This document shows positions 27,840 to 37,791 of a DNA stretch of 64,000 nt, in pieces. A program made the position numbers and the translations under genes. The stretch comes from Corynebacterium liangguodongii (GTDB lineage: Bacteria; Actinomycetota; Actinomycetes; Mycobacteriales; Mycobacteriaceae). The stretch is from contig NZ_CP026948.1 of the NCBI RefSeq assembly GCF_003070865.1, positions 930,001 to 994,000 of the forward strand, written 5' to 3'. The first letter of the stretch is position 1. Each line of letters starts with the position of its first letter. Below the pieces are notes generated by a model, which was given only the letters and a program-made list of their open reading frames with translations, was not told the origin of the DNA and ran no database searches.

Positions 27840-28475
27840 CTACAGCCCGAGCGCGTCGAGCACCTCGTCGGTGCAGCCCGGCAGCAGGGCGTGGGGCACG
27901 CCGCTGACGGTGACCACGCGGCCGAGCGTGGATGACCACTCCGGCACCACGCTATCGGCGTCGGAGACGATGGAGACCACCTCGACGCCCTCGGGCAGAG
28001 CCGGCTCACCAGCGACGTGCTCGAGGTCGACGAAGGATTCCCCGAAAACGAGCCGCACCAGCCACTCGGGGCGGAGGAAACCGTGGTGGTCGGTGCCGCG
28101 CCAGGCCCCGCCCAGCCCGACGAGGGTTCCCACCCGCTCGCGCACGCCAGGCACGGCGAGCGCCCGGAGCGCCACCAGGGCGCCGCTGGAATGCCCGACG
28201 ATATCGACCCGGTCGACCTCGTCCGGCAGGGCGGCAATGGCGCAGGCGAGCTCGGCCGCTGAGGCGTCGATACGCGCCGAGCCCCGCGCCCCGTGCGCAA
28301 CCGCTGCCATGTCCACCCCGCGGGAGCCTAGCGCCTCACCGAGCGGGGCGAAGACCACCGGATCTGACAACGTGCCGTGAACCGCTACGACGACCCGGCC
28401 AGTGGACTGGGAGGTCGCTGTGGAAGGGTCAGGAAGTACGCGGGGGAGGCGGGAGAGCAGTGCCTTGGGGGCCAT
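27840..28475 (-). CDS. small alpha/beta hydrolase
   Basis: The 211-residue product has an alpha/beta-hydrolase arrangement: the oxyanion strand VVVAVHGTLSDPVVF, the nucleophile elbow GHSSG in VDIVGHSSGALVALRAL, an acid candidate in VSDADSVVP and a histidine in GVPHALLPG. Substrate is unknown; lipase-like or esterase activity is likely. It is probably leaderless from TAACCT on the minus strand (28484-28489). This hexamer overlaps the opposing -10 of the esterase gene. Its stop lies 2 nt from the convergent GH25 stop. Confidence 0.82.
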   Translation of the reverse strand: MAPKALLSRLPRVLPDPSTATSQSTGRVVVAVHGTLSDPVVFAPLGEALGSRGVDMAAVAHGARGSARIDASAAELACAIAALPDEVDRVDIVGHSSGALVALRALAVPGVRERVGTLVGLGGAWRGTDHHGFLRPEWLVRLVFGESFVDLEHVAGEPALPEGVEVVSIVSDADSVVPEWSSTLGRVVTVSGVPHALLPGCTDEVLDALGL

Positions 28476-28482
28476 GGGGGTC

Positions 28483-28489
28483 TAGGTTA
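28483..28489. promoter_or_regulatory. overlapping divergent -10 elements (alpha/beta hydrolase / esterase)
   Basis: Plus-strand TAGGTT (28483-28488) is 8 nt before GTG 28497. Minus-strand TAACCT (28489-28484) is 8 nt before ATG 28475. The hexamers overlap by five bases, so both cannot be occupied at once. Confidence 0.6.
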
Positions 28490-28496
28490 CAAAAGC

Positions 28497-29714
28497 GTGG
28501 AAGGACTGAGAAACTTCTCGCTCGTCTCCGGCGACGCGAGCATTGCTATCTACGCCATCGCGGTTGTGACCTTGCTCGCCGCGCTCGTCCCGCCCAACCG
28601 CCGCACAGCCTGGGCGGGCGGGGCGAGCCTTGTGGTGGCCGCGGTGGTGATCTTCGGGCTCGAAGTGTGGCCGAAGCCCTTCCCGGACTCCGTGCCGTGG
28701 ATGATCTACGCCTCGGGCGCCGCCGCGGTCTTCATCGTGTTCTCCGCGATTGCCCAAAAAGGCCGACGCCTCGTGCTCGGGCTCGTCGCCGTCGTGGCGG
28801 TGGCCAACGCCTACCTCGTCTCCAACCTCGTCTACCAGCAGTACCCGACGGCGGGCTCGTTCTATCCGGTGCCGGTCGCCTCGAGCGTGAGCGTCGAGAA
28901 GTTCACGACACTGCGCCGCGCACCGTTGAACGACGGCCGCGAGGTCGCCGCCCTGGTCACGGTGCCGGCGGGCCCGATGCGCGACGCCGTGGCCTACGTC
29001 CCTCCCGCCTACTGGCGCAACCACGACCTCCCCGTCGTCGTGCTCATGGCCGGCAGCCCCGGCAGCCCGATGGACTGGTTTACCAAGGGCGACGCCGCCG
29101 AGGCGCTCGACGAGTACCAGGCCGCCCACAACGGAATCGCCCCGGTGGTCATCAGCGTCGACGCTACGGGTTCGGAGACAGGCAATCCGGCCTGCTCCGA
29201 TGGTCCCGAATACCAGGTGTTGACCTACCTCAGCGAGGACATCCCGCAGCTCATCCGGGATACCTTCCACGTCAACGAGGACCAGTCCACCTGGACGGTC
29301 GGGGGATTGAGCTACGGAGGCACGTGCGCACTGCAGGTTGTCACCAACCACCCGGAGGCCTACGGCACGTTCCTGGACTTCTCCGGCGAGGCGGAGCCGA
29401 ACGTGGGCAGCCACGACAAGACGGTGCAGCAGATCTTTGGCGGCAGCGAGGAAGATTTCCACAACGCTAACGCCGCGACGCTCCTCGCCAAGGCGCAGGG
29501 CACGCCGACCTACCGGGGCATTGCCGGGCGCTTCATCGCAGGGGAAGATGACCACATGTCCACAGCAGCCCTGCCTCACCTCAACGACCTCGCCCGCGCG
29601 GCGGGCATGGATACTACCTACGACACGGTGCCCGGGGCGCACAGCTACGGCGTGTGGCGCGTCGCGTGGCGCGATAGCCTCGATTTCGTTGCGCGGCGGG
29701 GAGGGATCGGATGA
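28497..29714 (+). CDS. membrane-anchored esterase upstream of aminoacyl-lipid synthase
   Basis: This 405-residue protein has four N-terminal hydrophobic segments (to about residue 120) followed by an esterase-D-like alpha/beta hydrolase domain. The nucleophile elbow is GLSYGGTCALQV, with SVDATGSETGNPACSDG before it and a histidine in PGAHSYGVWR. The catalytic domain should face outside. Its stop overlaps the next start as ATGA, so it is coupled to an MprF-like aminoacyl-lipid synthase. Hydrolysis or trimming of aminoacylated lipids is a plausible role (inference). The GTG start is 8 nt after TAGGTT. Confidence 0.8.
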   Translation: MEGLRNFSLVSGDASIAIYAIAVVTLLAALVPPNRRTAWAGGASLVVAAVVIFGLEVWPKPFPDSVPWMIYASGAAAVFIVFSAIAQKGRRLVLGLVAVVAVANAYLVSNLVYQQYPTAGSFYPVPVASSVSVEKFTTLRRAPLNDGREVAALVTVPAGPMRDAVAYVPPAYWRNHDLPVVVLMAGSPGSPMDWFTKGDAAEALDEYQAAHNGIAPVVISVDATGSETGNPACSDGPEYQVLTYLSEDIPQLIRDTFHVNEDQSTWTVGGLSYGGTCALQVVTNHPEAYGTFLDFSGEAEPNVGSHDKTVQQIFGGSEEDFHNANAATLLAKAQGTPTYRGIAGRFIAGEDDHMSTAALPHLNDLARAAGMDTTYDTVPGAHSYGVWRVAWRDSLDFVARRGGIG

Positions 29715-35750: not shown

Positions 35751-35757
35751 GGACCTC

Positions 35758-35767
35758 ACTCTAGACT
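35758..35767. promoter_or_regulatory. overlapping divergent -10 elements (exonuclease / ligA)
   Basis: Minus-strand TAGAGT (35763-35758) is 7 nt before ATG 35750. Plus-strand TAGACT (35762-35767) is 8 nt before GTG 35776. The shared core is the palindrome TCTAGA at 35761-35766. Confidence 0.65.
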
Positions 35768-35775
35768 GGCTTTCC

Positions 35776-37791
35776 GTGAGCGACATTTCCGCAGACCTGC
35801 AGCGCCAATGGGACGACCTCGCCAGCGAGGTGCGCCACCACCGCGACCTGTACTACAACGGCCAGCCGGTGATCTCCGACGCCGAGTTTGACGCGTTGTA
35901 CAAGCAGCTCGAGGCCTTCGAGGAGGCCCACCCGGAGCTCGCGGTGCCTGATTCGCCGACGAAGGAGGTCGGCGCCCCGGTGGCCAGCGGTTTCAACGAC
36001 GTCGAGCACTTGGAGCGCATGGCCAGCCTGGATAACGTGTTTTCCGCCGAGGAGCTCACCGAGTGGCTGGCGAAGACGCCGGGGCCCTACCTCACGGAGC
36101 TCAAGATCGACGGGCTCTCCATCGACCTGGTCTACGAGGGCGGCGAGCTGGTGCGAGCCGCGACGCGCGGGGACGGCCGCGTCGGTGAGGACATCACCGC
36201 CAACGCGCGGGTCATCGAGGACATCCCGCACCGGCTGACCGGGGATTTCCCGCCGCTTCTCGAGGTGCGCGGCGAGGTGTTCATCCGGCCCGAGGACTTC
36301 CCGGAGCTCAACGAGCAGCGCATCAAAGAGGGCGGGAAGCCCTTCGCCAACCCGCGCAACACCGCCGCCGGGGGCCTGCGGCAGAAGAACCCTGAGGACG
36401 TGAAGAAACGCAGGCTGCACATGATCTGCCACGGCATCGGCGCGCGTGAGGGCTTCTCGCCCGCGACCCAGCACGAGGCCTACGAGAAGCTCGCGGAGTG
36501 GGGGCTACCGGTCTCCGAATACACGCGCCTGGCCGGGACGCCCGAGGAGGTCCACGAGGCCGTGCGCTACTGGGCGGATCACCGCCACGACGCGATCCAC
36601 GAGATGGACGGTCTGGTGGTCAAGGTCGACAGCGTGGCCGCCCAGCGTGGTCTCGGGATGACCTCGCGCGCCCCGCGCTGGGCGATCGCGTACAAGTACC
36701 CGCCCGAGGAGGTGACCACGAAGCTTCTCGGCATCGAGGTCTCCGTGGGCCGCACCGGGCGGGCCACCCCGTTTGCCGTGCTCGAGCCGGTGTTCGTCTC
36801 CGGCTCCACGGTGTCGATGGCGACGCTGCACAACCAGCACGAGGTCAAGCGCAAGGGCGTGCTCATCGGCGATACCGTGGTGGTGCGCAAGGCCGGCGAG
36901 ATCATCCCGGAAGTCCTCGGCCCGGTGGCTGACCTGCGCGACGGCACCGAGCGCGAGTTCGTCTACCCGACGAACTGCCCGGCCTGCGGCACGGTGTTGG
37001 CGCCGGCGAAGGAGGGCGATGCCGACTGGCGCTGCCCGAACACGCGCTCGTGCCCGGCGCAGCTCGCCGAGCGCCTGACCTACCTCGCCGGGCGCGGCGC
37101 CTTCGACATCGAGGCGCTCGGCGAGAAGGGCGCGGCCGACCTGCTCGCGTCCGGCGTTTTGGACGATGAGGGCGGCCTGTTCGACCTCACCGAGGACGAC
37201 CTGGAGAAATCCAGCGTGTACACGACGAAGGCCGGCAAGGTCAACGCCTCGGGCAAGAAGCTGTTGGCCAACCTCGCCACCGCGCGCGAGAAGGAACTGT
37301 GGCGCGTGCTCGTCGCGCTGTCCATCCGCCACGTCGGGCCGACCGCGGCCCGCGCGCTCGCCGCCCGCTACAAGTCCATGGAGGCGCTTATCGACGCCCC
37401 CGTGGCCGACCTCGCAGACACCGACGGAGTCGGCACGATTATCGCCGAGAGCTTCAAGGACTGGTTCGAGGTCGATTGGCACCGCGGGATCGTCGAGAAA
37501 TGGGCCGCGGCGGGGGTACGCATGGAAGACTCGACCGAAGATGCCCCGCCGCAGACCCTCGAGGGGCTCACCGTGGTGGTGACCGGCACGCTGGAGGGGT
37601 TCACCCGCGACGAGGCGAAGGAGGCGATCCTCGCGCGCGGCGGCAAGGCGGCCGGGTCTGTGTCGAAAAAGACGAGCTACGTCGTGGTGGGGGAAAACGC
37701 CGGCTCCAAGGCGGACAAGGCGCGCGAGCTGGGCGTTCCTATTCTTGACGAGGCGCAGTTTCGGCAGCTGCTGGAGACGGGGCAGAACTAA
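35776..37791 (+). CDS. ligA: NAD+-dependent DNA ligase
   Basis: The 671-residue ligase seals nicks in replication and repair using NAD+. The N-terminal NAD-binding region has [19 protein letters not shown]. The adenylated Lys is in [20 protein letters not shown] Cys4 zinc finger (NCPACGTVL, then [12 protein letters not shown]), helix-hairpin-helix region and a C-terminal BRCT domain ([19 protein letters not shown]) follow in the usual order. GTG 35776 lies 8 nt after TAGACT, so it is probably leaderless. Confidence 0.97.

Follow-up and report, generated by a model that had tools for sequence, protein, structure and literature searches.

Overlapping -10-like hexamers at three divergent gene junctions of Corynebacterium, predicted to be leaderless bidirectional promoters

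Bidirectional promoters of Escherichia coli and Salmonella carry overlapping -10 elements on opposite strands, at which pairs of transcription start sites (TSSs) have been found (PMC12825309, PMC10268837). Passages of the first of these works place the two TSSs usually 18 base pairs (bp) apart, with 10 and 23 bp also common, and state that two polymerases are unable to occupy such a site together. In the portions considered here, the literature on leaderless genes of Actinobacteria treats genes singly (PMC3160421, PMC3890552, PMC5784534, PMC3898074): 33% of mapped mRNAs of Corynebacterium glutamicum are leaderless and TANNNT precedes about 97% of its start sites (PMC3890552), and 20% of the genes of C. 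diphtheriae are leaderless (PMC5784534). Within these portions, the two Corynebacterium texts lack the word 'divergent' and use 'bidirectional' only for a terminator; a legend in the Mycobacterium tuberculosis paper calls closely juxtaposed divergent promoters common and illustrates a leaderless pair in divergent orientation, and the passages of that paper examined do not mention overlap of -10 boxes. A literature search returned, in the titles and abstracts shown, no account of a class of divergent leaderless gene pairs whose -10 boxes overlap, which is weak evidence of absence. Here we analyse three divergent gene junctions in a window of 64,000 nucleotides (nt), the whole stretch of DNA under study (contig NZ_CP026948.1, positions 930,001 to 994,000), from the single-contig genome of Corynebacterium liangguodongii (2,357,924 bp; G000). 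We consider it likely that each junction is a leaderless bidirectional promoter with two overlapping -10-like hexamers, a prediction drawn from sequence comparison. Below, labels such as L001 denote opened loci and labels such as G042 denote genomes searched.

At all three junctions, TANNNT hexamers on opposite strands overlap, and each lies 7 or 8 nt from the start codon of its own gene, as direct reading of the sequence confirms for all six genes. At junction 1, TAGGTT (+ strand, 28483-28488, 8-nt spacer to GTG 28497) and TAACCT (- strand, 28489-28484, 8-nt spacer to ATG 28475) have five bases in common, as the initial annotation had proposed, and form a TANNNTA core (28483..28489). This core separates hyd (27840..28475, - strand), taken from the list of open reading frames and encoding a weak alpha/beta-hydrolase (PF12697, slightly under the Pfam cut-off), from est (28497..29714, + strand), encoding a putative esterase (PF00756, E 3.7e-16). 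At junction 2, TACACT (+ strand, 32877-32882, 7-nt spacer to ATG 32890) and TACCCT (- strand, 32878-32873, 8-nt spacer to ATG 32864) have only TA in common, again as proposed, within the core AGGGTACACT (32873..32882); the flanking genes are the spermidine-synthase-like spd (32064..32864, - strand; NF037959 above cut-off, without a Pfam family) and mnmA (32890..33969, + strand; NF001138 and TIGR00420 above cut-off), whose best named protein matches are from Corynebacterium, with identity up to 86%. Junction 3 combines TAGACT (+ strand, 35762-35767, 8-nt spacer to GTG 35776) with TAGAGT (- strand, 35763-35758, 7-nt spacer to ATG 35750) in the core ACTCTAGACT (35758..35767), between exo (35079..35750, - strand), encoding a DnaQ-type exonuclease (PF00929 and NF005927 above cut-off), and ligA (35776..37791, + strand; NF005932 and TIGR00575 above cut-off). 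These two hexamers do overlap, but the earlier statement that they share the TCTAGA palindrome is imprecise: strictly only TA (35762-35763) is common, and TCTAGA covers parts of both. The gene labels given initially agree with the Pfam and NCBIfam profiles, the hydrolase match just under the cut-off included. Junctions 2 and 3 have the form ANNNTANNNT, hereafter shared-TA, and junction 1 the five-base form TANNNTA. The distance between start codons is 22, 26 and 26 bp at junctions 1, 2 and 3, respectively, leaving 21, 25 and 25 bases between them.

In their geometry, the junctions look like leaderless versions of the known bidirectional promoters. With the optimal distance of 7 bp, TANNNTA predicts a TSS distance of 18 bp and shared-TA one of 23 bp; with each start placed on its start codon, the predicted distances become 22, 26 and 26 bp, so that the junctions match, in prediction, the 10/18/23-bp geometry with small variations. 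Two differences stand out. Here the prediction is that neither transcript has a leader, which brings the start codons to only 22-26 bp from each other, and shared-TA prevails at gene pairs of this genome (9 or 10 places, compared with one for TANNNTA), whereas 18 bp is the commonest distance in the E. coli data presented in PMC12825309.

To place the hexamers in the context of the genome, we used a sample of 464 kilobases (kb), comprising the window and 400 kb in 20 spaced stretches. Gene starts were taken from a simple codon-score caller, blind to promoter and Shine-Dalgarno motifs, which yielded 403 usable starts; it missed spd and set the ligA start at 35749, and no use was made of its output beyond the histogram of spacers, the counts of Shine-Dalgarno and -35 motifs and the list of distances. 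TANNNT was found 7 nt upstream of 34 called starts, 8 nt upstream of 22 and 6 nt upstream of 10, over a background of about 1.9 per position at 10-39 nt, and four control motifs were without a peak at 7-8 nt. Of the 56 starts that have TANNNT at 7-8 nt, just one was accompanied by a Shine-Dalgarno-like motif, compared with 102 of the 337 starts without TANNNT at 6-8 nt, and no motif of the list used occurred at any of the six junction starts. Across the three middle positions of the 56 sampled boxes, G was preferred at the first, A or G at the second and C or A at the third; six of the boxes had T at position 4. The TANNNT peak and the scarcity of Shine-Dalgarno motifs agree with the parts of PMC3160421, PMC3890552 and PMC5784534 considered. 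Together with conservation, the spacing peak and the scarce Shine-Dalgarno motifs predict that the hexamers are probably real promoters of leaderless mRNAs.

The sample also contained 51 called divergent pairs. Start codons were separated by 22-33 bp in seven of them and by 54 bp in the next closest; this tight group hints at a distinct class, and one of its seven members has the miscalled ligA start. At CATG in window positions 32863 and 35749, the divergent start codon shares bases with an ATG that lies in the mnmA or ligA frame, respectively. Such an upstream in-frame ATG can be picked by gene callers, as happened for ligA at 35749, and the promoter is then hidden in a false N-terminus.

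Across 242 Corynebacterium genomes, the cores are conserved in near relatives while the spacers vary, and further out the genes lie wider apart or are unlinked. A match to spd was present in 179 genomes, the best 30 of which were opened. In 11 of these 30 loci, the window included, mnmA lay 26-28 bp from spd, and all 11 carried AGNGTACACT; among the 10 distinct junctions, 9 of 10 core columns were invariant, compared with 0 of 14 spacer columns (hypergeometric p ~8e-6, for sequences that are related). In the other 19 of the 30 opened loci mnmA was not found beside spd, and TANNNT was present 6-8 nt upstream of spd in 18 of them. For exo, which had a match in all 242 genomes, the best 30 were likewise opened, some with projected starts. 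The 26-bp form occurred in five of these loci (the window, G042, G020, G021 and G059), always with ACTCTAGACT and spacers of 7 and 8 nt. The junctions of G020 and G021 are identical, and the four distinct junctions had no variable column among the 10 of the core, compared with 11 of 15 in the spacers. On a tree, the 26-bp form required two changes and was clustered (0 of 500 shuffles as low). Three further loci had a 30-bp form with GC between the two hexamers; 11 had projected starts 59-74 bp apart, and in most of these one gene or both had a separate TANNNT box at leaderless distance; two were spaced at 150 and 221 bp and five at 859-1062 bp, and in the remaining four ligA was not found within ~1.5 kb of exo.

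Junction 1 was followed through hyd, which had a match, often a weak one, in 209 of the 242 genomes. In the best 30 of these loci, est lay divergently alongside in 17, with tight spacing in 12. TANNNTA was kept at nine of the 12 tight junctions, namely the window and eight others at 52-69% hyd identity, four of which share one junction; the remaining three had a clean hexamer on the hyd side only. The case for junction 1 rests on this conservation, since TANNNTA is not enriched as a pattern.

The shared-TA form extends beyond the window. A search for CAY-N7,8-ANNNTANNNT-N7,8-RTG located 16 places in the genome (13, plus three from a second search); coding potential on both sides, as expected of a divergent pair, was clear at nine of them and borderline at one. 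An AT-swapped control of the 13-place pattern, with the central TA changed to AT, gave two places, neither at a divergent coding pair. The shared-TA form exceeds chance in this genome. TA and AT may differ in background frequency, and we therefore relied on gene context and conservation. The nine clear pairs comprise junctions 2 (L004, spd/mnmA) and 3 (L005, exo/ligA); L001, whose left gene is short; L002 (1501-1530; G000:C1:253771-253800), a DUF2505/MurB pair with the junction core AGACTACCGT; L003, with a protein mannosyltransferase on one side and, on the right, a gene that we take to be RsmI; L008, presumably ProS and YaaA; L009, whose genes we take to be a uroporphyrinogen methyltransferase and SelO; L270, with a SpoU methylase and a FolD-type gene; and L271 (1501-1530; G000:C1:1321042-1321071), with a shared-TA core between dut (dUTPase) and DUF3093, both of which start with GTG. 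The borderline place, L012, adjoins a thioesterase.

Two of these pairs were followed further. The pattern AGACTACCNT, built on the murB core with leaderless spacing, had matches in 169 of the 242 Corynebacterium genomes. Among 30 matching loci opened, 27 were DUF2505/MurB pairs, representing 26 distinct junctions (identity 50-74% for DUF2505 and 56-80% for MurB), and three concerned other genes; selected by their core, these loci indicate how widely the form has spread and give no unbiased rate. The dut junction was first met in other genera by a pattern search, in which 130 of 201 family genomes matched somewhere. The survey was then selected by protein, with 30 other genera represented by a genome each, start codons freely chosen among in-frame candidates and spacers of 6-9 nt allowed. 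A good dut match was found in 29 genera and a divergent adjoining DUF3093 in 28, and 15 of these 28 had overlapping leaderless-type boxes, always at the same 4-base offset. The dut tree has no starred branch, and on it the overlap needs seven changes, compared with a shuffled mean of 9.8; the tree does not decide between an ancestral and a derived overlap. At three dut/DUF3093 junctions (L283, L278 and L291) the core seems partly repeated, with a near-copy of GACTACTC or CTACGC following within ~20 bp, as though a duplication in place had turned a single shared promoter into two. In one genome (G012:C1:6691-6768, Corynebacterium), three pattern matches stand at 24-bp intervals with common CATATG ends, which suggests a short repeat array.

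Several results weigh against reading the junctions as overlapping promoters, or limit how widely that reading applies. A -35 element sought in the 56 sampled promoters gave no clear signal: four of six matches occurred in 8 of the 56 and five of six in none, and the shuffle control gave about 8% and 1%, respectively. TANNNTA was present at 14 places, compared with 13 for the reversed-pattern control, with a divergent coding pair at only one of the 14, and we rejected it as a generally favoured form. We likewise rejected genus-wide enrichment from raw counts. In 101 genomes, raw strand matches numbered 1454 for TA and 1284 for the AT-swapped control, palindromic matches being counted twice in both, and per genome TA was ahead in 61 and behind in 36; with a control nearly as frequent, these counts alone are no evidence. 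Conservation of the overlap, which would be looked for in relatives that keep the pairs, held among near relatives and failed further out. The overlap was absent in 25 of the 30 opened exo/ligA loci. Among loci from named records, exo and ligA were divergent in 21, 49 bp to 2.3 kb apart, with another orientation in two more, and none of the 21 had the 26-bp spacing; none of 19 divergent spd/mnmA loci from named records was closer than 119 bp (projected starts in both sets). Even in the near relative G042 the hyd/est junction has decayed (L169:2110-2150), with CAGGTT in place of TAGGTT and no evident hyd start, and est was not found by tblastn in that genome. Finally, 13 of the 28 dut/DUF3093 pairs are without overlap; several of these (L277, L278, L285, L287 and L293) have a degenerate core beside dut, with TACGCG for TACGCT, which would fit an ancestral overlap.

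We regard it as very improbable that the overlaps are products of chance in an AT-poor, compact genome with a loose motif. Raw genus-wide counts near the control and the lack of TANNNTA enrichment are what chance would give, but it leaves unexplained the conservation of cores relative to spacers, the concentration at divergent coding pairs and the TANNNT peak at 7-8 nt. A partial form of the same idea holds that one hexamer of each pair works and its partner is a chance TANNNT or is weakly used. The looseness of TANNNT would allow this, as would the three tight hyd/est junctions that are clean on one side and a GAGG just upstream of the exo start, which the Shine-Dalgarno list did not count. 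However, GAGG is absent from the exo spacer of L109, both hexamers are intact at the right distance throughout the near clades of exo/ligA and spd/mnmA, and where the genes lie apart each often has a separate TANNNT box at leaderless distance, so that we consider this explanation unlikely.

The initial annotation had further suggested alternate or fixed-ratio expression of the paired genes, the overlap being a selected switch through which they compete for polymerase. Conservation in near relatives would suit such a switch, as would the steric exclusion noted above and the report that one direction, when strongly activated, can repress its counterpart in E. coli (passages of PMC12825309). The same passages describe five E. 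coli bidirectional promoters at which the weakening of one direction left the other little changed, basal activity being too low for competition. Moreover, the gene pairs look functionally unrelated, and in many relatives their members are separated by longer gaps or not linked at all: spd keeps its hexamer in 18 of the 19 opened loci where mnmA does not adjoin it, exo and ligA lie 30 bp to more than 1 kb apart in 21 of the 30 opened loci, and nearly half of the dut/DUF3093 pairs do without the overlap, which is thus not kept wherever the divergent pair is kept. The claim of alternate or fixed-ratio expression does not stand up well to these observations, and we judge a selected switch to be quite unlikely.

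At a leaderless bidirectional promoter of the kind we favour, RNA polymerase, presumably with the housekeeping sigma factor, would bind the short core in either orientation, RNA would be made in both directions, and either mRNA would start at its first codon or within 1-2 bases of it. A polymerase in one orientation would briefly exclude the other, and at ordinary promoter strength the two genes would hardly be coupled. We infer that the need of each gene for a hexamer of its own maintains the overlap; with shared-TA, both genes could retain a good one in as little DNA as possible. TANNNTA makes position 4 of the two hexamers mutually complementary, whereas ANNNTANNNT leaves the middles free, which may explain why shared-TA prevails here. 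A bolder proposal, possible but doubtful, is that minimal divergent promoters form a class conserved over long times in Corynebacterium and related genera. A 10-bp ANNNTANNNT core exactly between two start codons would drive two leaderless housekeeping mRNAs (dut, murB, ligA, mnmA, folD-type, proS-like), and the orientation in which one polymerase binds would couple the members of each pair and lower expression noise.

As predicted, these junctions would bring bidirectional promoters and leaderless mRNAs, each a known feature, together in compact form. The whole intergenic region would consist of two -10-like boxes and two short spacers, with any further upstream promoter DNA falling within the coding sequence of the neighbour, and start codons are easily misannotated at such places. 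The spacing series of 26, 30 and 49-74 bp offers the same genes with joined and separated promoters, and murB, dut and ligA provide natural conserved cases for asking whether the orientation choice of the polymerase couples genes.

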